Source of the DNA: Oceanimonas pelagia
GTDB taxonomy: Bacteria > Pseudomonadota > Gammaproteobacteria > Enterobacterales > Aeromonadaceae
DNA: 64,000 nucleotides
NCBI RefSeq assembly: GCF_030849025.1
Contig: NZ_CP118224.1
Coordinates: 64,501-128,500, forward strand
Direction of reading: 5' to 3'
The notes under the pieces were generated by a model. The model did not search any database. It saw only the letters and a program-made list of their open reading frames with translations, and was not told where the DNA came from. The position numbers and the translations under genes are program-made. Of this stretch, positions 1,081-16,798 are shown piece by piece (position 1 is the stretch's first letter; each line of letters opens with the position of its first letter).

Positions 1081-3381
1081 TCATTTGCTCATCAGCTCGG
1101 GCACATCGCACTCCTGAGGCGCGATGGCGTGGGGCAGGGCATGGCCGGTGGGCTGGCGCAGGCCAATAATCACCTGCCAGGTTACCGCCAGGGCACCGAC
1201 GATAAACACCACGTCGCCAAAGGTGCGCACCCAGCGCAGGGTTTGCAGCAGGCCCTGCTGCATAAAGCTCTCGCTGCGGGCATACCAGAGGCCTTCGCTG
1301 GCGCTGGCCACAAACTGAATGATCCCCACCGGCAGCACGCTGGTAAACAGCATCAGCACCAGGCCGCCGTTCATCCACCAGAAAGCGGTTTTCATCAGCG
1401 ACTCGTTAAACACCATGTTGGGGCGAATGTAGCGCAGCACCAGCAGGGCAAAGCCCAGGGCCAGGAAGCCATACACACCGAACAGGGCCGCATGAGCGTG
1501 AGTGGCCGTGGTGTTCAGACCCTGAATGTAATAGAGCGCCACCGGGGGGTTGATCATAAAGCCCAGCACACCGGCGCCCAGCATGTTCCAGAACGCCACC
1601 GCCACAAAGAACATCAGCGGCCATTTCACATTTTCCATCCAGGGGGCGCTGTTCTTCAGGCGCCAGTTTTCCCAGGCTTCGTAACCCAGCACTATCAGGG
1701 GCACTACTTCCAGGGCGCTGAAGGTGGCGCCCACCGCCATCACCGGGGTGGTGGTGCCGGAGAAATACAGGTGGTGGAAGGTACCGGGAATGCCGCCCAG
1801 CATAAACAGTGAGGCCGAGGCCAGGCTGGCGGTGGTGGCGGCGCGGCGGGACACCAGCCCCATGCTGCAGAAGATAAAGGCCAGGGCGGTGGTGGCGAAC
1901 ACCTCAAAGAAGCCTTCCACCCACAGGTGCACAATCCACCAGCGCCAGTATTCCATGACCGAGATATGGGTGCGTTCGCCGTAGAAGAAGCCGGCACCGT
2001 AAAACAGGCCGATGGCGGCGCAGGAAGCGGTGAGCAGGGCCAGCAGGTTGCGGTCGCCGGGCTGGCGCAGCGCCGGTACCACGCCGCGCAGCATCAGCAC
2101 CAGCCACAGCACGATGCCGGTGAACTTGCCAATCTGCCACAGCCGGCCCAGATCCACATATTCATAGCCCTGATGACCCAGCCAGAAGTTAAGGTTGGCG
2201 GGCATGATTTGCGCAATGGCCAGATAGTTGCCGGCAAAGCTGCCCACCACCACGGCCACCAGCGCCCAGAACAGCACGTTGACCCCCAGCGCCTGATATT
2301 TGGGATCCTTGCCGCCGTTGATGATGGGCGCGAGGAACAGGCCGGCGGCGAGAAAGCCGGTGGCAATCCAGAACAGGGCGCTCTGAATGTGCCAGGTGCG
2401 CAGCAGCGAATAGGGGAACCACTTCGACAGCTCAATGCCGTAGAAATGCTGGCCTTCCACCGTGTAGTGAGCAGTGGCGCCCCCCAGCAGCACCTGAAAG
2501 GTAAACAGCGCCACCACCAGGAATACATACTTGCCCAGGGCCTTTTGCGACGGAGTCAGTTTAAAGCTGGTGAGCGGATCTTTCGCCGGGGCTTTGGGCT
2601 CGGCTTCCTCTTCCTTGCGCAGGAACGACCAGGCCCACACCAGGCCGCCCACGCCGGCGATCAGCAGTACCACGCTGACGATGGACCAGACAATGTTCTC
2701 GGCGGTGGGCTTGTTGCCGATCAGCGGCTCATGGGGCCAGTTGTTGGTGTAGGTGGCGGTGCTGTCCGGGCGCTCGGTAGAGGCGGCCCAGGCGGTCCAG
2801 AAGAAGAAGTTGGTCATATCCGCCCGGCGCTCGGCGCTGGGCAGGGTATTCTCCTTCATGGCAAAGCTCTGGCGGGTGCCTCTGAGTGTCGGGTCGTCGC
2901 CGAACAGCTTGTCGTAATAGGCGGCGGTATCGGCCATGGCCTGAGCACGACGTTCCGACAACACCAGTACATCGGTTTCGGCGTCATAGCCGTTGCGGCG
3001 GTATTCCTGCTTCAGCCGGTGTTGCAGCACCGCCTGCTGCTCGCCGTCGAGGTTGCCATAGCCGGTGCCGAATTCCTCCTGCGCGGCCAGCTCCAGCCAG
3101 GCCATCAGCTCCCGGTGCAGCCAGTCGGCGGTCCAGTCCGGTGCCTGATAGGCACCGTGCCCCCAGATTGAGCCCAGTTGCATGCCACCTACCGACTGCC
3201 AGGCGGTCTGACCGTCGAGAATGCCGTCGTGGGTGGTGAGCAGGGTGCCGTTTTCGGTGACCACCTGAGCGGGAATGGGGGGAGCCACCCGGTACACTTC
3301 GCGGCCAAAATAGCCAAGAACGGAAAAGGTAATGCCGAGGATCACGATTAGCAGGATCCACAGGCGACGATAATTAGCCAT
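1081..3381 (-). CDS. norB: Quinol-dependent nitric oxide reductase (qNOR), single-subunit NorB
   Basis: A 766-residue integral membrane enzyme that reduces two NO to N2O with electrons from quinol. The length is typical of single-chain qNOR, in which a cytochrome c-like N-terminal extension without heme motifs is fused to the 12-helix catalytic domain. No CXXCH is present in the N-terminal 220 residues. Catalytic landmarks include HLWVEGFFEV near residue 485, TFHHLYFSG near 535 (paired histidines at the heme/non-heme iron centre) and THAHAALFG near 630. Its ATG overlaps the end of ytfE by 8 bases and has a strong AGGAGG site, so the two are translated together from the sigma-54 promoter upstream of ytfE. 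Without other denitrification genes in view, NO detoxification is the safest role. Confidence 0.95.
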   Translation of the reverse strand: MANYRRLWILLIVILGITFSVLGYFGREVYRVAPPIPAQVVTENGTLLTTHDGILDGQTAWQSVGGMQLGSIWGHGAYQAPDWTADWLHRELMAWLELAAQEEFGTGYGNLDGEQQAVLQHRLKQEYRRNGYDAETDVLVLSERRAQAMADTAAYYDKLFGDDPTLRGTRQSFAMKENTLPSAERRADMTNFFFWTAWAASTERPDSTATYTNNWPHEPLIGNKPTAENIVWSIVSVVLLIAGVGGLVWAWSFLRKEEEAEPKAPAKDPLTSFKLTPSQKALGKYVFLVVALFTFQVLLGGATAHYTVEGQHFYGIELSKWFPYSLLRTWHIQSALFWIATGFLAAGLFLAPIINGGKDPKYQALGVNVLFWALVAVVVGSFAGNYLAIAQIMPANLNFWLGHQGYEYVDLGRLWQIGKFTGIVLWLVLMLRGVVPALRQPGDRNLLALLTASCAAIGLFYGAGFFYGERTHISVMEYWRWWIVHLWVEGFFEVFATTALAFIFCSMGLVSRRAATTASLASASLFMLGGIPGTFHHLYFSGTTTPVMAVGATFSALEVVPLIVLGYEAWENWRLKNSAPWMENVKWPLMFFVAVAFWNMLGAGVLGFMINPPVALYYIQGLNTTATHAHAALFGVYGFLALGFALLVLRYIRPNMVFNESLMKTAFWWMNGGLVLMLFTSVLPVGIIQFVASASEGLWYARSESFMQQGLLQTLRWVRTFGDVVFIVGALAVTWQVIIGLRQPTGHALPHAIAPQECDVPELMSK

Positions 3382-4051
3382 GCTGCACCTCCTGGCGCTG
3401 AGCAGAGTTGAACAGAATGTTGTTTTCCAGATGAATGTGCTGCATCAGATCGGTTTGCAGCTCGTTAATGCCGGTATACAGTGCCTGCCAGCTGGCGCAG
3501 GCACCGGCAGGCAGGGAAAAGTCGTGGGTAAGCCGGGCCAGCCGGGCCAGCGCCTCGCCGTGGTCGTCGTGCTCCATGCGCATCACGCTGATCGGCCCCT
3601 GGGCAGGGGCAAACAGGCCACGGCGCAGCATGGGGAACAAAATCTGCTCCTCCTTCTGCATATGGCTTTCCAGCTCCTGGCGCATGGCCTCCAGGTGCTC
3701 CGCCAGTCCTTTGGGGCAGAGGGGGTTGTCTTCGTGCACCGCTTCCACCCGCCGGGCCAGTTGCACCAGCTCGGGTAGCTGCTGGCGGTGCACCTGATGA
3801 TAACGGGCCAGAATATGATCAATCAGCTCATTGGTGCCGGCCTCGGCCCAGTTGATGTCGCTTTCGTTACGGGCCGGCAGGGCTTCCAGCCGGGCGAGCA
3901 CCTCGGCGCTGTCGAGGCCGCGCTCCGCCAGCGCCTCGCTCAGCAGGGCATGGCCGCCGCAGCAATAATCCAGCCGGTAATGATGAAATACCCGGGTGGC
4001 CCCCGGAAGGTCCCGGGCCAGTGCGGCCAGGGAGTGATTGAGCAGGCTCAT
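3374..4051 (-). CDS. ytfE: Iron-sulfur cluster repair di-iron protein YtfE/ScdA (RIC)
   Basis: A 225-residue cytoplasmic di-iron protein of the RIC family, which repairs Fe-S clusters damaged by NO and oxidative stress and can also reduce NO. The N-terminal ScdA_N domain includes the hallmark CCGGH at residues 30-34. The hemerythrin-like four-helix domain follows, with iron-ligand histidines and glutamates in RYHQVHR, HMQKEEQILFP, MEHDDHGE and HIHLENNILF. The start has AAGGAG seven bases upstream. It is the first gene of a two-gene operon with norB, preceded by a sigma-54 promoter and NorR operators, so induction by NO through NorR is expected. The pairing of a repair protein with qNOR under one NO-responsive promoter is functionally coherent. 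Confidence 0.95.
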   Translation of the reverse strand: MSLLNHSLAALARDLPGATRVFHHYRLDYCCGGHALLSEALAERGLDSAEVLARLEALPARNESDINWAEAGTNELIDHILARYHQVHRQQLPELVQLARRVEAVHEDNPLCPKGLAEHLEAMRQELESHMQKEEQILFPMLRRGLFAPAQGPISVMRMEHDDHGEALARLARLTHDFSLPAGACASWQALYTGINELQTDLMQHIHLENNILFNSAQRQEVQHG

Positions 4052-4204: not shown

Positions 4205-5740
4205 ATGATTTACGAACTCCTGCTGGCGGATCTGGCCACCGAGCTGCCCAGCGCCGTGCGGCTGCAGAGTCTGGTGCGCATGGTGCGCGAGCATTTTGGC
4301 TGCGGCGCCGTGTGCCTGCTGCGGTTGCAGGACGGTGTACTCAGCCCGGTGGCCACCGACGGCCTGGTGCGTGAGGCGCTGGGGCGTCGCTTTGTGGTGG
4401 CCCAGCACCCGCGGCTGGCGGCCATTCTGGCCAGCCGCAGCACAGTGGCCTTTGCGCCCGACTCACCCCTGCCCGATCCTTACGATGGCCTGTTGGAGCA
4501 CCATGTGGGTGAGGCGCTGCCGGTGCACGACTGCATGGGCATCAGCCTGTATGTGAATGGTGAGCAATGGGGCGCCCTGACCCTGGACGCGCTCACCGCC
4601 GGCACCTTTGATCAGGATGCCCGCGACTCGCTGCAGCGGCTGGCGCTCACCGTGGCCGCCGCGGTGCGCATGACCCGGCTGGAGCGGGACATGCGCGCCC
4701 TGCGGCTGGCCCGGCAGGACGCGCCGGCCTTGCCGGGCGATCACCCGGAAGGGGAAATTCTGGGACAGAGCACAGTGCTCAAGCGGCTGCTGCACGAGCT
4801 GGATGTGGTGGCCGACTCGGATCTGCCGGTGTTGCTCACCGGTGAAACCGGGGTGGGCAAGGACTTGTTCGCCCGCCGTCTGCACCAGCGCTCGCCCCGG
4901 CGGGATCGGCCGCTGGTGCAGGTAAACTGCGCCGCCTTGCCGGAATCCCTGGCCGAAAGCGAGCTGTTCGGTCATGTAAAGGGCGCCTTTTCCGGCGCCG
5001 GCAACGCCAGGCCCGGCCGCTTTGAGGCCGCCGACGGCGGCACCCTGTTTCTGGATGAGGTGGGGGAGCTGCCCCTCGGCATTCAGGCCAAGCTGCTGCG
5101 GGCGCTGCAAAACGGCGAAATTCAGCGGCTGGGGGAAGACGCGCCGCGCAAAGTGAACGTGCGGGTGATTGCCGCCACCAACCGCCAGCTGCACGACAGC
5201 GTGCGCGACGGCCACTTTCGCGCCGATCTCTATCACCGGCTGTCGGTGTATCCGGTGCCCATTCCGCCGCTGCGGGAGCGGGAAAACGACGTGCTGGTGC
5301 TGGCCGGCCATTTTCTGGAGCTGAACCGGGGCCGGCTGGGGCTGCGCAGCCTGCGGCTGTCGCCCGCCGCCGAACAAGCCCTGTGCGCCTATGCCTGGCC
5401 CGGCAATGTGCGTGAGCTGGAGCATGTGATCAGCCGCGCCGCCATCAAGGCCCTGAGTCGGGGCGCCGACCGCGCCGACATCATCACCCTGGAGCCGGAA
5501 CTGCTGGATCTGGCCGGCGACATGCCATTAACCAAACCTGCCCAGGCGGAAAGCAAGCCCGCACCGGTGGCATCGCCGCCCCCGCTGGCCAGCCTGCAAC
5601 AGGTGACCCAGCAGGCCCAGCAACAGGCCATAGCACACGCCCTGGCCGCCACCGACCACAACTGGGCCGCCGCCGCCCGCCTGCTGGACGTGGACCCCAG
5701 CAACCTGCATAAACTGGCGAAGAGGCTGGGGATGAAGTGA
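4205..5740 (+). CDS. norR: NorR, nitric-oxide-sensing sigma-54 activator
   Basis: A 511-residue enhancer-binding protein. The N-terminal GAF domain (about 1-165) keeps the regions that ligate the NO-sensing ferrous iron in E. coli NorR: HPRL, DSPLPDPYDG and HDC. The AAA+ domain follows, with Walker A GETGVGKD near residue 215, the sigma-54 contact loop as GAFSGA near 260 and Walker B FLDEVGEL near 283. A Fis-type helix-turn-helix ends the protein. An in-frame ATG at 4190 would add five residues, but the third NorR operator lies between the two ATGs and the 4205 start matches the length of E. coli NorR; neither start has a clear ribosome-binding site. It is divergent from ytfE-norB. Confidence 0.95.
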   Translation: MIYELLLADLATELPSAVRLQSLVRMVREHFGCGAVCLLRLQDGVLSPVATDGLVREALGRRFVVAQHPRLAAILASRSTVAFAPDSPLPDPYDGLLEHHVGEALPVHDCMGISLYVNGEQWGALTLDALTAGTFDQDARDSLQRLALTVAAAVRMTRLERDMRALRLARQDAPALPGDHPEGEILGQSTVLKRLLHELDVVADSDLPVLLTGETGVGKDLFARRLHQRSPRRDRPLVQVNCAALPESLAESELFGHVKGAFSGAGNARPGRFEAADGGTLFLDEVGELPLGIQAKLLRALQNGEIQRLGEDAPRKVNVRVIAATNRQLHDSVRDGHFRADLYHRLSVYPVPIPPLRERENDVLVLAGHFLELNRGRLGLRSLRLSPAAEQALCAYAWPGNVRELEHVISRAAIKALSRGADRADIITLEPELLDLAGDMPLTKPAQAESKPAPVASPPPLASLQQVTQQAQQQAIAHALAATDHNWAAAARLLDVDPSNLHKLAKRLGMK

Positions 5741-7547: not shown

Positions 7548-8987
7548 TCAGCTTTCCAGGCTGCGCACCTTGCCGGCGAGAGCAGCAAAGTCAAAGGGCT
7601 GGCGGCTGGGCACCAGCAGCAGCAGGGCGGAGATCGCCACCGGCACAAAGGTGGCCAGCAGGAACGACTCCAGCAAATGAGTGGCGGCCTGCCCCGGTGC
7701 CGGGAACAGCATCAGGCCGGCCACCAGGCCGCCGAGGGTGCTGAGCATGGCATTCCAGCCCTGGTAGCGGGCGTTGTAGAAGCCGAAAAACACCGGAAAG
7801 GCGGCGGCGCAGCACAGCAGATCGGCCAGCAAAAACAGATAGAGCACGCTGAAGCCCTGAGAGGCCACATACAGCACCGGAACAGACGTCAGCACAATCA
7901 GCCAGCGCGACAGCCCCAGCAGGGTATGCACGCTGGTTTGCGGCAGCAGCCGGCGCAGGTCCACCACCAGCATACTGGTCAGGCCGCTGATGGTGGAGTC
8001 GGCGCTGCTCATGATCAGTGCCAGGCCAAAGGGCAGCAGGCCAATGGCAAACCACAGCGGCATGTTGGGCATGAGCACGCTGAACAGCGCCACCGAGCCG
8101 TCACCGTTCGAACCCAGGCCCACAAAGGCCAGGCCAAACAGCCCCATGATGAAGATGACGGGAAAGCTGAGCACACCGCTCAGAATAAAGCCGTTGCGGA
8201 TCACCTTGTTGTCCCGGGCGGCAAACACCCGCTGCCAGGTACCCTGGTAGAACAGGCCGGTCAGCACCACGGCGAGGAAGAAGGTCAGGCCCGACTTCAG
8301 CCCGGTGGTGTCGAGCGGGTCAAGCAGGTGCGGGGCGTTTTCCTGCAGGCCGGCCAGGGCCGGGGCCAGACCGCCGGTGGCCTGCCAGCCGAGCACGATC
8401 AGGGTGAGCAGAAACGGCAGTATCACCAGCATCTGCACCCGGTCGGTGAAAATGGTGACTTTCAGTCCGCCATACAGGGTGTAGAGCAGAGTGGCCACCA
8501 TTACGATGCCGGCGGTGGCCCACAGCGGCACCGGCGCCAGCAGCGCCACCATCTGGGCGATGGCGGTGAGGCCGGCGGTGAGCGAAATAAACATGTAAAA
8601 CAGCATGATCACCAGCACAAAGCCGAACATGCCGCGGCCATAGCGGCCCATGACAAATTCGGTGAGGGTGTGGCCGGCGGGCATCAGCTCGCGAATGCGT
8701 TTGCCGAGCGGAATCATCACCAGCCGGGGCGCCAGCACCCCCAGGGCATAACCGGTAATGGCACCAATGCCGCCCCAGGTGGCGGCCTGGGCCGGGCCGA
8801 ACAAAATCCAGGTGCCCATGGTGGTGGCCAGCAGGGTCAGGGTGGTGGCGGTGCCGCTCTGGCTGTTGCGGGCCACAATAAAGTCTTCCGGCTGATCGTT
8901 TTGCCGGCGGGCGTAAAGCAGCCCGGGTATGGCGAAGACCGCCGCAAATAAACAGAGCCATAAAATGGCGGTGGTGGTGTCCAGCAT
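7548..8987 (-). CDS. Sodium:solute symporter (SSS family), TPP-riboswitch controlled
   Basis: A 479-residue transporter of the SSS/SLC5 family with about 13 hydrophobic helices. The start at 8987 is chosen because AAAGGGAG lies eight bases upstream and the protein then begins directly with helix 1 (MLDTTTAILWLC); a longer frame reaching 9098 would run into the riboswitch. The TPP riboswitch in its leader means expression should rise when thiamine pyrophosphate is scarce, so the cargo is probably thiamine or a biosynthetic precursor. SSS-family carriers under TPP riboswitches have been noted in comparative work (called ThiV). Substrate is inferred from regulation alone; nothing in the sequence fixes it. 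Confidence 0.87.
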   Translation of the reverse strand: MLDTTTAILWLCLFAAVFAIPGLLYARRQNDQPEDFIVARNSQSGTATTLTLLATTMGTWILFGPAQAATWGGIGAITGYALGVLAPRLVMIPLGKRIRELMPAGHTLTEFVMGRYGRGMFGFVLVIMLFYMFISLTAGLTAIAQMVALLAPVPLWATAGIVMVATLLYTLYGGLKVTIFTDRVQMLVILPFLLTLIVLGWQATGGLAPALAGLQENAPHLLDPLDTTGLKSGLTFFLAVVLTGLFYQGTWQRVFAARDNKVIRNGFILSGVLSFPVIFIMGLFGLAFVGLGSNGDGSVALFSVLMPNMPLWFAIGLLPFGLALIMSSADSTISGLTSMLVVDLRRLLPQTSVHTLLGLSRWLIVLTSVPVLYVASQGFSVLYLFLLADLLCCAAAFPVFFGFYNARYQGWNAMLSTLGGLVAGLMLFPAPGQAATHLLESFLLATFVPVAISALLLLVPSRQPFDFAALAGKVRSLES

Positions 8988-9082
8988 GTGTTCTCCCTTT
9001 GCCCCAGTGAGCGCTAAGTGGCCGGGATGTGTGGGCGAAGAGGAAGAGGGCGGATCGGGATGGTGCGGGATCGTTCGTTTCC

Positions 9083-9163
9083 TTCCCTTCGCCGGCATTA
9101 CCCGGATCAGGTTCTAAGGGTTACCGCCGGTGTGGCGGAGTCTCAGCCCGTGTGGGCTCCCCC
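9083..9163 (-). promoter_or_regulatory. TPP riboswitch (THI element) upstream of the SSS symporter
   Basis: The minus strand carries the conserved THI-box core in order: GGGGGAGCCC, GGGCTGAGA, then ACCCTTAGAACCTGATC and GGGTAATGCCGGCGAAGGGA. Paired elements P1, P2/P3 and P4/P5 can be drawn. About 95 bases separate it from the symporter start and would hold the expression platform; I see no strong terminator there, so translational control is more likely. Confidence 0.95.
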
Positions 9164-9283
9164 AGGAATAGTGCGCCGAGAGTAAGGGGCGGGCGATTTA
9201 TTGTCAATGCGGTGTAGTGTGGGGGGGCAGCAGTGGAAGGTGCGGGGGATGGTGTTTAGCCTCTGGTAGCTTCCTGCATGCAT

Positions 9284-9325: not shown

Positions 9326-10408
9326 TTATTTTACCTGCCAGCTGATCTCTTCGCCGGCGCGAATCGGCACCAGTTTATCGCCGCCCAGGGGCAGGGTTTC
9401 ACCCACGGTCCAGGCTTGTTTCACCAGGGTGATGGTATCCTGGTTGCGGGGCAGGCCGTAGAAGTCGGGGCCGTGGTGGCTGGCAAAGGCTTCCAGCTTG
9501 TCCAGCGCCCCGGCTTCTTCAAAGGCTTCGGCATACAGCTCAATGGCGGCGTGAGAGGTGTAGGCACCGGCGCAGCCGCAGGCGGCTTCCTTGCGGTGCT
9601 GGAAGTGCGGCGCCGAGTCGGTGCCCAGAAAGAACTTTTTGCTGCCGCTGGTGGCGGCGCGCACCAGCGCCTGCTGATGGGTGTTGCGCTTGAGAATGGG
9701 CAGGCAGTAGTAGTGCGGACGAATGCCGCCCACCAGCATGTGGTTGCGGTTGAACAGCAGGTGGTGGGCGGTGATGGTGGCGGCCACGTTGTCACCGGCC
9801 TGCTCCACGAATTTAACCGCATGCTCGGTGGTGATGTGCTCGAGCACGATTTTCAGATCGGGAAAGTCGCGCACCACGTCGGGCAGCACGGTTTCCAGAA
9901 ACACTTTTTCCCGGTCGAAGATGTCGATGCGGGAATCAGTGACTTCACCGTGCACCAGCAGCAGGGTGCCGGTTTCCTGCATGGCTTCCAGCACCGGGTA
10001 GATGTTTTTCACATCGGTCACGCCGGAGTCGGAGTTGGTGGTAGCACCGGCCGGATAGAGTTTGCAGGCGGCAATCTTGCCGGTGGCCCTGGCCTTGCGG
10101 ATTTCCTCGGGCTGGGTGTTGTCGGTGAGATACAGGCTCATCACCGGCTCAAACCGGCTGCCCTCGGGGCGCACCGCCAGAATGCGGTCGCGGTATTCCA
10201 GCGCCAGCTCGGTGGTGGTGACGGGGGGCACCAGGTTGGGCATGACGAGGGCGCGGCCCAGATAGCGGCTGGCGTCGCGTACCGTGTCTTGCAGTTGCTC
10301 TCCGTCGCGCAGGTGCAGGTGCCAGTCGTCGGGGCGGGTAATGGTCAGTGTGGTCGTAGTTGTGGTCATTGTCGGCTCGGCGTTATCCATGGCTTTCGAT
10401 GCCTTCAT
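9326..10408 (-). CDS. pyrC: Dihydroorotase PyrC
   Basis: A class II dihydroorotase of about 360 residues that interconverts N-carbamoyl-aspartate and dihydroorotate in de novo pyrimidine synthesis. Zinc and substrate motifs are intact: DWHLHLRDG near the N-terminus, [14 protein letters not shown] (the carboxylated lysine), LLVHGEV, VLEHITT and LGTDSAPH. The start at 10408 is chosen for the GGAGG seven bases upstream; the region similar to E. coli PyrC begins only about 14 residues later ([10 protein letters not shown]), and a further in-frame ATG at 10369 has no good ribosome site. It stands alone between two TPP-riboswitch units and has its own terminator, so I do not assign it to either. 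Confidence 0.96.
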
Positions 10409-10447
10409 TATCCACCTCCGGGCCTTTTTCACCAAACTTCTGAACAT

Positions 10448-10530: not shown

Positions 10531-10565
10531 CCTTGAGCGCAGGGGTATGTTATGGTTCGAGCCGA

Positions 10566-10645
10566 GACACGGGGTGTCCTGCGATGCAGGGCTGAGATAA
10601 CACCCGTAGAACCTGATCCAGTTCATACTGGCGAAGGGATGTCAG
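10566..10645 (+). promoter_or_regulatory. TPP riboswitch (THI element) upstream of the SDR/monooxygenase operon
   Basis: Canonical core in order: ACGGGGTGTC, GGGCTGAGAT, ACACCCGTAGAACCTGATC, and CAGTTCATACTGGCGAAGGGA. It begins about 140 bases before the SDR start codon and points at it. This is the second THI element in the window and faces away from the first. Confidence 0.95.
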
Positions 10646-10685
10646 CCTGCCGGCCCGGTGCCATTGCTGCCTCATCATGCCTTCG

Positions 10686-10705
10686 CCTCACCGTTGAGGT
10701 AGAAA
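10686..10705 (+). promoter_or_regulatory. Hairpin that masks the SDR ribosome-binding site
   Basis: CCTCA (10686-10690), a CCGT loop and TGAGG (10695-10699) form a stem whose 3' arm contains the Shine-Dalgarno GAGGT, five bases before the ATG. This is a plausible sequestering element for the riboswitch upstream, implying translational control. Confidence 0.65.
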
Positions 10706-11479
10706 ATGCAAACTTCCATCAAGCTGAACGAACAACTGGTGCTGGTCACCGGCGGTGCCCGCGGCCTGGGTGAACATCTGGTGCGCGCCTTTCTGCGCGA
10801 AGGCGCGAAAGTGGTGATCAACTACCTGAACAGCGCCGAGGCGGCGCAGAAACTGGTGGCCGAGGCTCCGGAGCGGGCGCTGGCGGTGCAGGCCGACGTG
10901 CGTGACGCCGCCGCCGTGCAGGCCATGTTCGAGCAGGCCGAGGCCCATTTCGGCTGCCCGGTGACCACGGTAATCAACAACGCCCTGCCGGCGTTTTCCT
11001 TTAACGGCGACGCCCGCACCCATGCCGATGCGCTGGCCTGGGAGCACCTCAACCAGCAGCTGGAAGGCGTGGTGGGCGGTGCCCTCCACACCACTCAAGC
11101 GGCGCTGGGCGGCATGCGCAAGCAGGGCTTTGGCCGCATCGTCAACGTGGGCACCAACCTGTTCCAGAACCCGGTGGTGCCCTACCACGACTACACCGCC
11201 GCCAAGGCGGCGCTGCTGTCGCTGACCCGCACCCTGTCCCAGGATCTGGGCCCGGACGGCATTACCGTTAACATGGTGTCCGGCGGTCTGCTGCGCACCA
11301 CGGATGCCTCTGCGGCGACGCCGGAAGCGGTGTTTGACTATATCGCCGCCAGCACGCCGCTGCGCCGGGTAACCACGCCGGCGGAGTTTGCCGACGCCAC
11401 CCTGTTCTTCGCCTCGCCCTGGTCCCGCTCGGTCACCGGCCAGAACCTGGTGGTGGACGGCGGTCTGGTGAAAAACTGA
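10706..11479 (+). CDS. SDR-family oxidoreductase under TPP-riboswitch control
   Basis: A 257-residue classical short-chain dehydrogenase/reductase. The N-terminal Rossmann motif is TGGARGLG, followed by NNA in the fourth strand and the catalytic pair YTAAK near residue 161. The residue 13 places before the catalytic Tyr, normally Ser, reads Thr (in NVGTN), which may alter but not abolish activity. Such enzymes use NAD(P)H on alcohols or ketones; the substrate cannot be read from sequence. It is the first gene of an operon with the flavin monooxygenase (ATG overlaps its TGA). The riboswitch links it to thiamine status, so a role in salvage or turnover of thiamine or its precursors is inferred. 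I do not recognise it as any named thiamine enzyme. Confidence 0.9.
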   Translation: MQTSIKLNEQLVLVTGGARGLGEHLVRAFLREGAKVVINYLNSAEAAQKLVAEAPERALAVQADVRDAAAVQAMFEQAEAHFGCPVTTVINNALPAFSFNGDARTHADALAWEHLNQQLEGVVGGALHTTQAALGGMRKQGFGRIVNVGTNLFQNPVVPYHDYTAAKAALLSLTRTLSQDLGPDGITVNMVSGGLLRTTDASAATPEAVFDYIAASTPLRRVTTPAEFADATLFFASPWSRSVTGQNLVVDGGLVKN

Positions 11480-12777
11480 TGAGCATGAATGAACGCATGA
11501 TGCACCTGAACCTGTTTCTGTTCGGGTGCGGTCACCACAGGGCGGCCTGGCGTCATCCCAACTCGGCGGTGGAGCAGTTGGGCGACATTCGCTATTACGA
11601 GCGGCTGGCGCAAACCGCCGAGCGCGGCAAACTGGATGCGGTGTTCTTTGCCGACGGCCAGTCTACCGGCAATGTGGCGGACGGCAGCTACTGGTTTCTG
11701 GAGCCGCTCACCGCCATGGCGGCCATGAGCCGGGCCACGGATCGCATCGGCTTTATCAGTACCGTCTCCAGCACCTTTTTCACCCCCTTTCACGCGGCGC
11801 GCATGATGGCCTCGCTGGATCATATCTCCAACGGCCGCATGGGCTGGAACGTGGTGACCTCCATGTTTGACGTGGAAGCCCGTAACCACGGCTACGAGAC
11901 CATGCCGGCCCACGCCGAGCGTTATCGCCGGGCCGAGGAATTTGTAAATGCGGTGATCAAGTTGTGGGATTCCTGGCAGGAAGGGGCCCTGGTGATGGAT
12001 CGCGCCGGCCACTATGCCGACCCGGACAAGGTGACCCCCATCAACCACCAGGGCGAGTTCTTTCTGGTGGACGGCCCGCTCAATGTGCCGCGCCCGCCCC
12101 AGGGGCATCCGGTGCTGTTTCAGGCCGGTGCGTCGGAGCAGGGCCGGGCGCTGGCGGCCAAATGCGCCGAGGCCATCTACGCCGTGGCCTACGATTTGCC
12201 GGCGGCCCAGGACTACTACCGTGACATCAAGCGCCGGGTAAAGGACGCCGGCCGCAACGTGGACGTGCCCATCATGCCCGGGCTGGTGACCTATGTGGCC
12301 TCCACCGAGGCCGAGGCCAGGGCCAAGCAGCGGGAGCTGGACGAGCTGCTGCCCGCCGATGCCTCGCTACGCCAGCTCGGCACCTATGTGGGACAGGACT
12401 GCTCCGGCTGGGAGCTGGACGCCCCGGTGCCGGCATTGCCGTCGCTGGACGCCTTCACCGGCCCCAAGGGCCGCTACGCCACCATACTGCGGATTATCGA
12501 GACCGAGCAGCCCACGGTGCGCCAGCTGCTGGGCCGGCTTGCTGCCGGCGGCGGCCACTGCACCATGGTGGGCACGCCCGAGTCGATAGCCGATCGCATG
12601 GAGCAGTGGTTCCGCAATGAAGGTGCCGACGGCTTCAACCTGATGCCGCCCTCACTGCCCGCCGGCATCGAGGACTTTGTGGATCAGGTGGTGCCCGAGC
12701 TGCAACGCCGCGGCCTGTTCCGCACCGAGTATGAAGGCAGTACCTTGCGGGAGCACTTGGGTTTGGTTAAACCGTGA
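11479..12777 (+). CDS. LLM-class FMN-dependent monooxygenase, NtaA/SnaA/DszA type
   Basis: A 432-residue bacterial luciferase-like flavin monooxygenase. The N-terminus (MHLNLFLFGCGHH, then FFADGQS) and the central RMGWNVVTS segment match the NtaA/SnaA/DszA subgroup, which uses FMNH2 from a separate reductase to oxidise substrates such as nitrilotriacetate or dibenzothiophene sulfone. The start overlaps the SDR stop (TGATG), with further ATGs within 30 bases, so exact initiation is uncertain by a few residues. No flavin reductase gene lies nearby. Being in a TPP-riboswitch operon, it may oxidise a thiazole- or pyrimidine-containing compound; RutA of this broad superfamily opens the uracil ring, a precedent for pyrimidine chemistry. 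Substrate is unassigned. Confidence 0.9.
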   Translation: MSMNERMMHLNLFLFGCGHHRAAWRHPNSAVEQLGDIRYYERLAQTAERGKLDAVFFADGQSTGNVADGSYWFLEPLTAMAAMSRATDRIGFISTVSSTFFTPFHAARMMASLDHISNGRMGWNVVTSMFDVEARNHGYETMPAHAERYRRAEEFVNAVIKLWDSWQEGALVMDRAGHYADPDKVTPINHQGEFFLVDGPLNVPRPPQGHPVLFQAGASEQGRALAAKCAEAIYAVAYDLPAAQDYYRDIKRRVKDAGRNVDVPIMPGLVTYVASTEAEARAKQRELDELLPADASLRQLGTYVGQDCSGWELDAPVPALPSLDAFTGPKGRYATILRIIETEQPTVRQLLGRLAAGGGHCTMVGTPESIADRMEQWFRNEGADGFNLMPPSLPAGIEDFVDQVVPELQRRGLFRTEYEGSTLREHLGLVKP

Positions 12778-12872: not shown

Positions 12873-13601
12873 TCACCCGCCCGGCGGCGTCAGCCGTTGC
12901 TCCAGGCGGCGGAGCAGGGCGTCAAGCACCATGGCCATCAGCGCCACCATAATGCCGCCCTGCAGCACAAAGGCCAGGTTGTCGGTAAGCAGCCCGGCAA
13001 TGATCACTTCGCCAAAGCCCTTGGCCGCCACCGTGGAGCCAATGGTGGCGGTGCCGATGCTGATGATCAGCGAAATACGAATACCCGCCACCAGGGTGGG
13101 CAGTGCCAGGGGCAGTTCTACCCGCCATAACTGCTGCCAGGGCGTCATGCCCATGCCCCTGGCGGCCTCGCGCACGCTGGCGGGAATTTGCTGCAGGCCG
13201 GTGACCGCATTCTCAAAAATCGGCAGCATGCCGTACAGCAGTAACGCCACCAGGGTGGGGGTCAGCCCAAACCCCAGCGCCGGCACCGCCAGCGCCAGCA
13301 CCGCCACCGGCGGAAAGGTCTGGCCCAGGTTGGCCACGGCCCGGGCCAGCGGAAAGAAGGCCTTGCCCGAAGGCCGGGTCACGGCGATGGCGGCGCCCAG
13401 CGCCAGCAGGGTGGCGGCGGCAATGGCGGCAAACACCGCCAGCGCGTGCCAGCCCAGCAGGTTGGCAAAGCTGTCGCGGGCGTAAATGGCCGGCGCGGGG
13501 GTGTTGACCAGGGGGCGAAACAGCGGGGCCAGCGCCTCCATGTTCAGGGTAAGCAGGGCCAGCAACAGCCCGGGGATCAGCCAGCCCAGCGTGCGGGTCA
13601 T
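12873..13601 (-). CDS. yehW: Osmoprotectant-type ABC permease YehW
   Basis: A 242-residue inner-membrane permease of the glycine betaine/proline-betaine (OpuC/Yeh) ABC family, with about six helices and the EAA-type cytoplasmic loop around REAARGMGMTPWQQLW. The length matches E. coli YehW (243). It is the last gene of a four-gene minus-strand set in the same order as E. coli osmF-yehYXW and its start overlaps the end of yehX by 4 bases. In E. coli this system is a low-affinity betaine importer under RpoS rather than a main osmoregulatory transporter. Repeat copy 1 lies directly downstream. Confidence 0.9.
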   Translation of the reverse strand: MTRTLGWLIPGLLLALLTLNMEALAPLFRPLVNTPAPAIYARDSFANLLGWHALAVFAAIAAATLLALGAAIAVTRPSGKAFFPLARAVANLGQTFPPVAVLALAVPALGFGLTPTLVALLLYGMLPIFENAVTGLQQIPASVREAARGMGMTPWQQLWRVELPLALPTLVAGIRISLIISIGTATIGSTVAAKGFGEVIIAGLLTDNLAFVLQGGIMVALMAMVLDALLRRLEQRLTPPGG

Positions 13602-14536
13602 GCGCCGGCTCCCCGTTTCAGCAGTTCGTTCAGGGTCACTTCGCCCACCGGTTGGCCGGCGTCATTGACCACGGTCAGCCGGTCGGCGCCCTGCCAGATA
13701 AGCCCGGCCAGGGCGTCACGCAGGCTGGTGCCGGCGCTCATGGCAGGATCACAGGGCTGAGTAACCGGGGTCATTATCTTCGCCAGGGTCTGAGTGGCCA
13801 GCAGCCGCAGGGATCTGTCCTGGCCGCCCACCAGGCTTTGCACAAAGCCGGGCCTGGGGTGGCGCAGCAGGACGTCGGGGCTGTCCATCTGCAGTATTTC
13901 GCCCTTGTCCATCACCGCAATCACGTCGGCCATTTTAATGGCCTCTTCCAGATCGTGGGTCACCATGATGATGGTGATGCCCAGCAGCTGCTGTATATGC
14001 AGCAGCTCGTCCTGCAGGTGTTCCCGGGTGAGCGGATCCAGGGCACCAAAGGGCTCGTCCATCAGCAGCAGCTCAGGGTGAGCCGCCAGCGCCCGTGCCA
14101 CGCCCACCCGCTGTTGCTCGCCGCCGGACAACTGGTGCGGATATTTGCCGGCAAAGGTGGCGGGATCGAGCCGGAACAGGCTCAGCAGCTCGCTCACCCG
14201 GGCGTCGATGTCGGTTTTGCTCCAGCCCAGCAGGCGCGGCACGGTGGCAATGTTGCGGGCAATGGTCTGATGCGGAAACAGCCCCACTCCCTGAATGGCG
14301 TAACCAATGCGCCGGCGCAGCTGCTCGGCGGGAAGGGTGGTGACGTTTTGCCCCTGAATGAAAATCTCGCCCGAACTGGGTTCAATCAGCCGGTTGAGCA
14401 TGCGCAGGGTGGTGGACTTGCCGCAGCCGGAGGTGCCCACCAGGGCGCAGACTCGGCCGCTGTCCACCTTGAACGACAGATCCTTTACCGCAGTCTGCCC
14501 GCCGAATTGTTTGCTCAGGTTTCTTACTTCAATCAT
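13598..14536 (-). CDS. yehX: ABC transporter ATP-binding protein YehX
   Basis: A 312-residue ATPase that powers the Yeh-type betaine importer. Walker A GTSGCGKST, signature LSGGEQQR, Walker B LLLMDEPFGALD and the H-loop (TH in IIMVTHDLEE) are all intact. The C-terminal 60-70 residues resemble a CBS-like extension typical of osmoprotectant ABC ATPases. The start at MIEVRNLSKQF is set by the ATGA overlap with yehY; a longer upstream frame is an out-of-frame reading of yehY. Co-translated with both permeases. Confidence 0.93.
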   Translation of the reverse strand: MIEVRNLSKQFGGQTAVKDLSFKVDSGRVCALVGTSGCGKSTTLRMLNRLIEPSSGEIFIQGQNVTTLPAEQLRRRIGYAIQGVGLFPHQTIARNIATVPRLLGWSKTDIDARVSELLSLFRLDPATFAGKYPHQLSGGEQQRVGVARALAAHPELLLMDEPFGALDPLTREHLQDELLHIQQLLGITIIMVTHDLEEAIKMADVIAVMDKGEILQMDSPDVLLRHPRPGFVQSLVGGQDRSLRLLATQTLAKIMTPVTQPCDPAMSAGTSLRDALAGLIWQGADRLTVVNDAGQPVGEVTLNELLKRGAGA

Positions 14537-15708
14537 TCGCGAGTGCCTTGTTGCAGGGCGATCAGGGTGTCGATAAGCATGGCGGCCAGAAACGCCAGCA
14601 GCAGAGTGGGCAGGGCACCGAGGATCACCAGATCGGTGGCGGTCTGACCCAGCCCCTGAAAGATGTAGGTGCCGTAGCCACCGCCGCCCACCAGGGCCGC
14701 CACCGCCACCAGACCGATATTGAGGGTCACCACCACCCGCAGGCCGCTCAGGATCACCGGCATGGCCAGGGGAAATTCCACCTGCCACAGCCGCTGGCGG
14801 CGGCTCATGCCCATGGCGGTGGCCGCCTCGCGTATGCTGGCATCCACCCGGTCAAAACCCAGTGCCGTGTTGCTGACGATCGGCAGCAGCGAATACAGAA
14901 ACAGGGCGATTACCGCCGGCGCCGCGCCGATGCCGCGAATGCCCAGCTCACCCAGCCAGGGGTATGCGGTGGCCAGCAGGCTGAGCGGCACCATCAGCAG
15001 GCCAAACATGGCCAGGCTGGGCACTGTCTGCAAAATATTGAGCACCGGAAACAGCGCCGCCCGTAGTCCCGGCGAGCGATGGCAGGCCACCCCCAGCGGA
15101 ATGCCTGCCAGCACCGCCGGCACCATGCTGCCCAGGGCCAGCTGCAGATGGCGCAGGCCCTGCCGCCAGAAGTCGCTGCGGTTGTGAAACTCCTTCAGTA
15201 ACGAAAGATCGTCACAGCGGCCTGCGGCCAGCAGGGCGATAACGGCACCGGTAAGGACGGTTACCAGCGCCAGCCGGGACAATGGCCCGAGCTTCAGCCG
15301 CAGGGCGGTGTCGGTGATCAGCAGGCACAGCCAGAACAAGGCCAGCCAGAAACCGGCACCCAGCGAGACCCGGGCCAGGGGGCCGGCATTTTCCAGCAGG
15401 GCGGTGGCGGTGTGACCGGCGGTATAAAGCAGCAGCGGCAGAGCGGCGGTGGTGAGCAACAGCCGCAGGGGCAGGGCACGGTTAGTCAGGCACAGGGGCA
15501 GCAACAGCAGCGGCCATAAGCCGGTGATACCTGCTGAATTCAGCAGACTCAGGGCCTCGCCGGGAAAAAGACGGTTGGGTTGCAGGCCGACAAAGGGCAG
15601 TGCCAGCAGGCTGGCCACCAGCGCCGCCGCCAGCAGGCCGCCGACCTTGTCGGGTTTTAATGACAAAAGAATGGGTGACTCCCCGAGATAAATTTTTGCG
15701 TTCTTCAT
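14533..15708 (-). CDS. yehY: ABC permease YehY
   Basis: A 391-residue permease, longer than YehW because of an N-terminal block of about five extra hydrophobic helices (residues 25-180) before the permease domain with its EAA loop (REAATAMGMSRRQRLW). E. coli YehY has 385 residues and the same plan. It precedes yehX with a 4-base overlap. Upstream, repeat copy 2 separates it from osmF, so the transcript reads through a structured element that could change stability or dosage between the binding protein and the membrane parts. Confidence 0.92.
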   Translation of the reverse strand: MKNAKIYLGESPILLSLKPDKVGGLLAAALVASLLALPFVGLQPNRLFPGEALSLLNSAGITGLWPLLLLPLCLTNRALPLRLLLTTAALPLLLYTAGHTATALLENAGPLARVSLGAGFWLALFWLCLLITDTALRLKLGPLSRLALVTVLTGAVIALLAAGRCDDLSLLKEFHNRSDFWRQGLRHLQLALGSMVPAVLAGIPLGVACHRSPGLRAALFPVLNILQTVPSLAMFGLLMVPLSLLATAYPWLGELGIRGIGAAPAVIALFLYSLLPIVSNTALGFDRVDASIREAATAMGMSRRQRLWQVEFPLAMPVILSGLRVVVTLNIGLVAVAALVGGGGYGTYIFQGLGQTATDLVILGALPTLLLAFLAAMLIDTLIALQQGTRE

Positions 15709-15725
15709 TGCCGGCCTGCGTATGC

Positions 15726-15796
15726 CGTAGGCCCGGTTTTAACCGGGCGGCAGTGCCGTATGTCGCATGGTTTGCCCCAATAAATGGGGGCCTACA
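15726..15796. repeat. 71-nt palindromic repeat, copy 2
   Basis: Same 71-base length and architecture as the unit at 12781-12851: CGTAGGCCC at the left, GGGCCTACA at the right, hairpins GCCCGGTTTTAACCGGGC and GCCCCAATAAATGGGGGC, and the shared GGCAGTG motif in the spacer. The stem sequences differ but stay paired, indicating compensatory change. It sits inside the osmF-yehY gap. Confidence 0.85.
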
Positions 15797-15802
15797 GGTT
15801 CA

Positions 15803-16714
15803 TCAGTCCTGAGTCAGGCCCGCCAGATAATCGGCGGCCACGGCCTCGGCGCTTTCACCGCCGATGGCGATGCGGCTGTTAAGGGTTTGCAGGGTTTTCA
15901 CATCCAGCGACTGAAACACCGGCTCCAGAATGCCGGCGATCTCCGGGTGCGCCTTGAGCACGCTTTCCCGCACTATGGGAGCGGGGGCGTAGACCGGCTG
16001 CACGCCCTTGTCGTCGTCCATCACTACCAGACCCACGGAGGCGATGGCGCCGTCGGTACCATAGACCATGGCGGCGTTGGTATTGTCGGTTTGCAGGGCG
16101 GCGGCCTTGATGGTGGCGGCGGTGTTGCCGCCGGAGAGCACCAGCAGCTGGTCGTCGCTCAGCTCAAAGCCGTAGGTCTGCTGAAAGGCGGGCAGCACGG
16201 CGGGGCTGGACACAAACTCCGCCGAGGCCGCCAGCTTGATGTCGCCGCCTGCGCTCACATAGCGGCCAAAATCCGACATGGTGGCCAGGTTATTGGGGCC
16301 GGCAATTTCCTGGCGCACGGCAATGGCCCAGGTGTTGTTGGCGTTGGCCGGGGTCAGCCACACCAGTTGATGGGCGTCGTAATCCAGCTGCCTGGCCAGG
16401 GCATAGCCATTGTCAAAGTGCTTCCAGGCGTCGCTGTCTTCTTTCTGATGAAAAAAGGCGGCGTTGCCGGTGTACTCCGGGTAGATATCGATTTCACCGG
16501 CGATAATGGCCTTGCGCACGATGGGCGTGCCGCCCAGCTGGCTGCGGTTTTCCACCTCCAGTCCGGCGTTGTTCAGGGCCTGATAGATCAGGTTGCCGAG
16601 CAGGCCGCCTTCGGTGTCGATTTTGGACGATACCACAATGGGGTCCGCCGCCATGGCCGGCAGGGCAAGGGCGGCAGAAAGGGTAAACATGGCCGAAGCC
16701 AGCAGCTTTTTCAT
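15803..16714 (-). CDS. osmF: Periplasmic betaine-type substrate-binding protein OsmF/YehZ
   Basis: A 303-residue periplasmic binding protein (OpuAC/QAT fold). The start at 16714 (MKKLLASAMF) has AAGGA eight bases upstream and gives a normal Sec signal peptide cut after AMA near residue 22; a longer frame to 16747 would spoil it. Conserved family features include GGLLGNLIYQAL and the PEYTGN motif. As the first gene of the set it supplies substrate to YehY, YehX and YehW. Homologues bind glycine betaine and related compounds weakly, so the true ligand may be another quaternary amine. Repeat copy 2 begins just after its stop. Confidence 0.92.
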   Translation of the reverse strand: MKKLLASAMFTLSAALALPAMAADPIVVSSKIDTEGGLLGNLIYQALNNAGLEVENRSQLGGTPIVRKAIIAGEIDIYPEYTGNAAFFHQKEDSDAWKHFDNGYALARQLDYDAHQLVWLTPANANNTWAIAVRQEIAGPNNLATMSDFGRYVSAGGDIKLAASAEFVSSPAVLPAFQQTYGFELSDDQLLVLSGGNTAATIKAAALQTDNTNAAMVYGTDGAIASVGLVVMDDDKGVQPVYAPAPIVRESVLKAHPEIAGILEPVFQSLDVKTLQTLNSRIAIGGESAEAVAADYLAGLTQD

Positions 16715-16798
16715 GACGTTATTCCTTATTCGGCGAAATGGGGGCACCTTTATTGAATACAGGATTAAGGGTACCCCATGGCAGATCTCATCTGAACC

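Follow-up and report, generated by a model that had tools for sequence, protein, structure and literature searches.

Short-chain dehydrogenases/reductases (SDRs) encoded behind riboswitches for thiamine pyrophosphate (TPP) have been described before. RNA-seq of Corynebacterium glutamicum mapped a TPP riboswitch before cg0825, which encodes a putative short-chain oxidoreductase with a speculated role in thiamine metabolism (PMC3890552). ThiV is the TPP-controlled symporter of SAR11 for 4-amino-5-hydroxymethyl-2-methylpyrimidine (HMP) (PMC11452348), and the riboflavin lyase RcaE strips a vitamin of its ribityl chain by oxidation (PMC12746152). Here we analyzed a locus of Oceanimonas pelagia in which a TPP riboswitch precedes an SDR gene and a gene encoding an LLM-class monooxygenase dependent on flavin mononucleotide (FMN). 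The locus lies in a stretch of 64,000 nucleotides, called the window below (NZ_CP118224.1, positions 64,501 to 128,500), and its features are given in Table 1. The TPP-SDR-LLM arrangement is a real conserved unit, TPP-regulated by prediction, and may serve thiamine salvage.

The window SDR resembles cg0825 in lying behind a TPP riboswitch. NF006393, the family model matched by the window SDR, also matched in C. glutamicum as part of the control set, and this match is possibly cg0825. Unlike the window operon, cg0825 was reported with no mention of an LLM in the available portion of the article. Among the open-access literature matches listed, no report tied an LLM monooxygenase to a TPP riboswitch in its title or the opening of its abstract; the article containing both "TPP riboswitch" and "monooxygenase" deals, in its available portion, with an algal gene and a dimethylamine monooxygenase (PMC9870897). 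The preliminary description of this DNA had presented the operon as a candidate for an undescribed thiamine-linked pathway. SDR control by TPP was known already from the mapped riboswitch of cg0825, while the LLM link appears to be new. A comparative-genomics paper of 2002 reportedly used "oarX" as the name of a thiamine-regulated SDR, and no bacterial use of that name was seen among the open-access matches listed.

Short peptide patterns, run against a collection of 84,980 species genomes, yielded 35 LLM relatives. In all 23 loci with an LLM identity of at least 66%, an SDR gene (68.6-95.3% identical) was located upstream of the LLM gene and a TPP riboswitch before the SDR; in two of them, L021 and L034, thiM and thiE lay between riboswitch and SDR. 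None of the 12 loci with an LLM identity of 46% or less displayed a riboswitch, by Rfam or by our own aptamer covariance model, or an SDR match at E <= 1e-8. Our own model captured only 11 base pairs and hence acts mainly as a sequence profile. The unit was found in Pseudomonadota, Actinomycetota and Bacillota, so that the riboswitch link is not limited to one strain, a limitation that the preliminary description had named as refuting its idea. It was also identified in another gammaproteobacterial family (L074), in Rhodococcus DMU1 (L081) and in Pseudochrobactrum algeriensis (L086). A plasmid of Mesobacillus foraminis (L084, Bacillota) carries the same order with a more distant SDR (46%) and LLM (51%) and a riboswitch of 49.6 bits by our own model. 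Six further LLM homologues of 49-52% identity (L085, L127-L131) had no riboswitch.

The unit is rare and patchy. Within the family of O. pelagia, the LLM was detected in 17 of 75 genomes, all belonging to its own genus (17/23), and in none of the 52 genomes from other genera. The SDR and the riboswitch accompanied it in all 16 LLM genomes of the family other than that of O. pelagia, some of which represent species already among the 23 loci. In wider draws, one of 369 genomes of the same class gave a hit at E 1e-170 (that of O. pelagia itself), and one of 385 genomes from the class of G476 gave a hit (G476 itself). Plasmids are involved as well: 394 plasmid records contained an LLM relative, and among nine examined of the 30 listed, H1, H5 and H8 carried the SDR and the riboswitch and the other six (H6, H7, H13, H21, H22 and H28) had no riboswitch. 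The SDR was found in 16 plasmid records, of which H39, H44 and H45 were examined. The layout of a locus assigned to Bacillus subtilis SK6B4 (L017) was almost identical to that of Pseudochrobactrum; this assembly is probably mislabelled or mixed.

The two genes of the window almost certainly form a single operon, because the stop codon of the SDR gene and the start codon of the LLM gene overlap (ACTGATGAGC). This overlap and the riboswitch before the SDR, scoring above the Rfam gathering threshold, bear out the preliminary description. The two proteins also diverged together. SDR and LLM distances correlated with r = 0.93 over 16 loci, a value reached in none of 2000 permutations.

In the SDR, Tyr163 and Lys167 were invariant, with Thr150 at the usual Ser site. 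Its profile matched 26 general SDRs of the PDB at 1e-30. The PRK08642 family name, 3-oxoacyl-acyl carrier protein (ACP) reductase, is an annotation label only, and the thiamine context speaks against an acyl-ACP substrate. The LLM profile matched YtnJ/MoxC (387 bits), NtaA (355 bits), DszA (352 bits) and RcaE (257 bits) in the PDB, together with alkane, dimethyl sulfide (DMS) and ethylenediaminetetraacetate (EDTA) monooxygenases. YtnJ/MoxC, NtaA and DszA cleave C-S or C-N bonds, and many enzymes of the NtaA/DmoA type oxidise a carbon beside N or S, whereupon the heteroatom leaves. Close orthology to RcaE was not found, its score being 257 bits versus 387 for YtnJ/MoxC. The preliminary description had noted that relatives of such enzymes open pyrimidine rings, which is misleading here; a RutA-like ring opening was rejected by score, since the LLM reached 69.3 bits with TIGR03612, whose cut-off is 498.3. 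Its nearest PDB relatives by sequence are YtnJ/MoxC, NtaA and DszA.

Phylogenetic analysis in an unrooted tree separated 14 TPP-linked LLMs from 15 other LLMs with a support of 1.000. His137 occurred in all of these 14 and in none of the 15 non-TPP homologues; YtnJ has a His at this position too. RcaE, NtaA, EDTA monooxygenase, DszA, DMS monooxygenase and YtnJ/MoxC, all matched by the same LLM sequence profile, are degradative enzymes. Unlike these enzymes, the window LLM group is TPP-linked and has a signature of its own such as His137. From these relatives and their chemistry, the window LLM may be expected to catalyse a cleavage of C-N or C-S bonds dependent on FMNH2 and O2.

Same-family SDRs were found in thiamine operons of other bacteria. 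In the family of G476, the SDR was present in 12 of the 295 genomes drawn, each time in the order TPP-thiM-thiE-thiD-SDR (thiMED-SDR), and no LLM match of 40% or more was found within these 12 stretches. The same order occurred in L079, likewise of the G476 family, as well as in Gemmobacter, Rhizobium and Neorhizobium (L082, L083 and L087). In L116, a tenA gene (4437-5138, +; PF03070 143.6 bits) is inserted between thiD and SDR, and in L121, from the family of G476, the SDR gene contains a stop codon. Beside the operon of L121, our own model gave a second, divergent hit resembling a TPP riboswitch (54.2 bits; 3369-3473, -). The order thiM-thiE-thiD behind a single TPP riboswitch is absent from the window and present in these SDR-carrying relatives. 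Like the window operon, the alphaproteobacterial thiMED operons encode a same-family SDR, as the last gene behind the same TPP riboswitch; unlike it, they contain no LLM, and their SDR differs at residue 91 (window numbering). This residue was His in 16/16 thiMED-linked SDRs and Asn in 13/13 LLM-linked and 7/7 unlinked SDRs, a difference that may mark a difference in substrate. In Pseudarthrobacter (L021 and L034), the two gene sets are joined as TPP-thiM-thiE-SDR-LLM. In Corynebacterium sp. SN15 (L030:4146-6344), thiM is followed immediately by the gene for an LLM that is not orthologous (39% identity); neither Rfam nor our own model found a TPP riboswitch there. This locus is possibly another link between thiamine and LLMs.

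The preliminary description also connected the operon with a symporter behind a second TPP riboswitch, and this connection recurs elsewhere. A symporter homologue with its own TPP riboswitch was detected near the pair in 10 of the 23 loci (seven Oceanimonas/Oceanisphaera, two Halomonas and Alcaligenaceae CGII-43), and also in L074 and L122-L125. In the other 13, among them all five from Actinomycetota and all five of the Pseudochrobactrum type, no homologue of the symporter was detected close to the pair; L010 and L013 end at a contig end, where L013 has a second riboswitch. Neither L007 nor L126 showed a homologue close to the pair. The window symporter resembles SAR11 ThiV by family and riboswitch, both being sodium:solute symporters behind TPP riboswitches. 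The ThiV signature residues are Tyr78, Asp139 and Phe254 (SiaT numbering); SiaT was not among the matches of the window symporter.

The genome of O. pelagia (G000; 3.59 Mb, one contig) encodes four TPP riboswitches, located before the SDR-LLM operon, the symporter gene, the thiC operon and a stand-alone thiD (L041:8192-8998; TIGR00097 307.7 bits). In the thiC operon, thiC is accompanied by genes for a ThiD/ThiE fusion and a ThiF/MoeB-type protein and by thiG and thiH; thiM and thiE lie farther downstream. By gene content, O. pelagia would be capable of de novo thiamine synthesis with an additional, TPP-controlled HMP-kinase capacity. A ThiK-like kinase was also detected (G000:C1:1789248-1789982, -; 95.6 bits, under the family cut-off); it may act as a thiamine kinase, which matters for whether intact thiamine can be used.

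The leader of the operon looks like a translational OFF switch. The leader segment CCTTCGCC (10680-10687) is complementary to GGCGAAGG of the aptamer (10630-10637), with which it pairs in the ligand-free fold. It overlaps CCTC (10686-10689), which is complementary to the Shine-Dalgarno sequence GAGG (10696-10699). The pattern CCTTCGCCT(C/T)...(G/A)AGG was present, by eye, in all 17 leaders compared from the Oceanimonas/Oceanisphaera type, Marinobacter and Alcaligenaceae; an automatic pattern matched 14 of these 17, the other three having a longer tail than it allowed. In the L026 leader, the stem is changed on both sides, from CCTC/GAGG to CCTT/AAGG. The leaders of L015, L016 and L074 displayed, by eye, other stems able to mask the ribosome-binding site, and no masking stem was apparent in those of L014, L019 and L023. 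With such a switch, SDR and LLM should be made at low TPP. The suggestion that a thiamine moiety is regained when TPP is low gains support from this predicted switch and from the regulon and operon ties to thiM, thiE, thiD and once tenA in relatives; overall, the idea of the preliminary description is supported in part.

We tentatively propose, at somewhat less than an even chance, that the two genes form a salvage module for the pyrimidine (HMP) half of thiamine, in which the LLM and then the SDR would give HMP. A salvage role is suggested because SDR and LLM co-occur and co-diverge, same-family SDRs are part of thiM-thiE-thiD(-tenA) operons, and a TPP-controlled symporter is present in part of the carriers. 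By analogy with the relatives, the LLM would use O2 and reduced FMN supplied by a host flavin reductase to oxidise a (4-amino-2-methylpyrimidin-5-yl)methyl-X compound at its methylene carbon, cleaving the C-N or C-S bond. X could be an amine (4-amino-5-aminomethyl-2-methylpyrimidine, AmMP, or thiaminase-exchange products), a sulfonate (as formed when sulfite cleaves thiamine) or the thiazolium, either of thiamine or of a damaged thiamine, thiamine itself being the boldest option. X would leave and 4-amino-5-formyl-2-methylpyrimidine would be formed, which the SDR would reduce to HMP. ThiD and ThiE, here the ThiDE fusion and the second, TPP-controlled ThiD, could then rebuild thiamine phosphate. 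The pairing of an oxygenase with a reductase would find an explanation in such a scheme, as would the retention of the SDR alone in some organisms, if the aldehyde arises elsewhere. The proposed pair is like TenA in being a pyrimidine-side salvage system giving HMP; TenA belongs to a different protein family (PF03070) and often co-exists with the pair (14/24 genomes).

The gene content of the carriers bears on which half of thiamine is recovered. Among 24 carrier genomes, thiC was identified in 17, thiG in 20, a tenA match in 14 and full-length thiM in 16 (13 over the cut-off), leaving eight without a full-length thiM match. Rhodococcus HNM0569 (G019) lacks thiC and thiM and carries thiG and tenA; Alcaligenaceae CGII-43 (G022) lacks thiC, thiM and tenA and carries thiG. 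Both should need the pyrimidine only, because thiC and thiM are absent and thiG is present, and it is mainly on this ground that the pair is placed on the HMP side, a placement that is suggestive rather than firm. All five genomes of the Pseudochrobactrum type lack thiC and tenA, four of them also thiG, and carry thiMED; a TPP riboswitch preceded thiMED in all three of these five genomes that were put to Rfam. TenA converts AmMP to HMP. AmMP as the sole substrate was lowered as a candidate, in view of the tenA matches among the carriers.

Several points weigh against this proposal. Among 12 SDR-family hits in a draw of 398 genomes, eight had in their vicinity neither an LLM nor a TPP riboswitch at Rfam level; two of the eight are just under the family cut-off, and seven were examined over about 14 kb and one over 3.8 kb. 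Our own aptamer model gave one weak hit among them (48.5 bits, 5.3 kb upstream of the SDR on the same strand, L080). Moreover, LLM-linked SDRs intermixed in the tree with some of the seven unlinked SDRs included. The SDR family as a whole is therefore not thiamine-specific. The thiMED operons carry the SDR without an LLM. The 17 carriers with thiC have no need of outside HMP, and AmMP is weakened as a substrate because tenA matches are widespread among the carriers, G019 included. The gene absences in G019 and G022 come from draft genomes whose completeness is not stated, and ThiM beside the pair in Pseudarthrobacter would fit the thiazole side too.

On a thiazole-side reading, LLM and SDR would supply ThiM with hydroxyethylthiazole made from a thiazole that is oxidised or substituted (e.g., a side-chain aldehyde, sulfoxide or carboxythiazole). 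The position of thiM and thiE immediately before the pair in L021 and L034, the presence of thiM in all 16 thiMED-SDR operons examined and the action of LLM relatives on sulfur compounds agree with it. However, the eight carriers without full-length thiM argue against it, and G019 and G022 would gain little from a thiazole product, so that we consider this reading rather unlikely. We regard it as unlikely, too, that the LLM is an oxygen-dependent thiamine lyase, which would hydroxylate the methylene bridge of unphosphorylated thiamine and free thiazole and 4-amino-5-formyl-2-methylpyrimidine for reduction to HMP by the SDR. If this were true, bacteria without thiamine pyrophosphokinase could use outside thiamine by dismantling and rebuilding it, and no futile cycle would follow, since free thiamine is not an intermediate of their de novo route. 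A thiamine pyrophosphokinase match was found in five of 25 carriers (four over the cut-off), all of the Pseudochrobactrum type, and not in the other 20. The cut-off of the ThiK model was exceeded in none of 27 genomes or records; at E <= 0.001, 18 of the 27 matched, 10 of the Oceanimonas/Oceanisphaera type over full length at 84-106 bits and eight weakly.

Detoxification or repair, in which the pair would keep TPP enzymes from being blocked by oxidised thiamine or by a thiamine antivitamin (bacimethrin or methoxythiamin), fits induction at low TPP, and release of such antivitamins in fresh water has been reported (PMC12345177, available portion). The predicted OFF response and the tie to thiM, thiE, thiD, tenA and the symporter fit a supply of precursors better, and this explanation appears distinctly improbable. 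We give equally little credit to an internal recycling, in which the pair would recover pyrimidine fragments released as the cell breaks down its own thiamine, not imported ones: the frequency of thiC and thiG among carriers and the 13 loci without a nearby symporter homologue are in its favour, and against it is the TPP-controlled symporter, which lies close to the pair in the window as in 10 of the 23 loci. Most doubtful of all is that SDR and LLM catalyse unrelated reactions (e.g., one as the reductase of some TPP-dependent pathway, the other as an oxygenase that scavenges sulfur) merely sharing TPP control, as the eight unlinked SDR hits might suggest, since the order SDR-LLM is fixed and the co-divergence is strong.

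Table 1. Coordinates of the two riboswitch-led units and associated features in the window
Feature	Position	Strand	Basis
TPP riboswitch aptamer (RF00059)	10560-10656	+	Rfam 68.1 bits, E 3e-11, above gathering threshold 54.3
Predicted expression platform	10680-10699	+	Leader comparison and fold
SDR oxidoreductase, PRK08642 family, putative aldehyde reductase	10706-11479	+	257 aa; NCBIfam NF006393 438.5 bits, cut-off 292
LLM-class FMN-dependent monooxygenase, NtaA/DmoA subfamily	11479-12777	+	432 aa; TIGR03860 544.1 bits, cut-off 279.7, residues 10-426
Second TPP riboswitch, 5' of symporter gene	9067-9173	-	Rfam 76.8 bits, gathering threshold 54.3
Sodium:solute symporter (SSF family), candidate ThiV-like importer of thiamine precursor	7548-8987	-	PF00474 66.5 bits
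pyrC, between the two riboswitch-led units	9326-10447	-	TIGR00856

The symporter open reading frame as listed (7548-9098) begins within the aptamer, and from reading the sequence its true start is likely at about 8987. The pyrC gene looks like a bystander between the two units. Genes of a glycine-betaine-type ABC transporter adjoin the operon (12873-16747, -), with an OsmF-type binding protein at 15803-16747; they are apparently unconnected with it.

Thiamine precursors are scarce at sea and many plankton depend on them; the article reporting this, in its available portion, treats pyrimidine vitamers and TenA in the sea and notes that the known pyrimidine-salvage enzymes leave some uses unexplained (PMC10470507). 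The conservation across three phyla of an oxygenase-reductase pair that TPP probably represses suggests a salvage reaction not yet characterised. The analysis narrows its function, short of proof, to a handful of candidate substrates that are directly testable.

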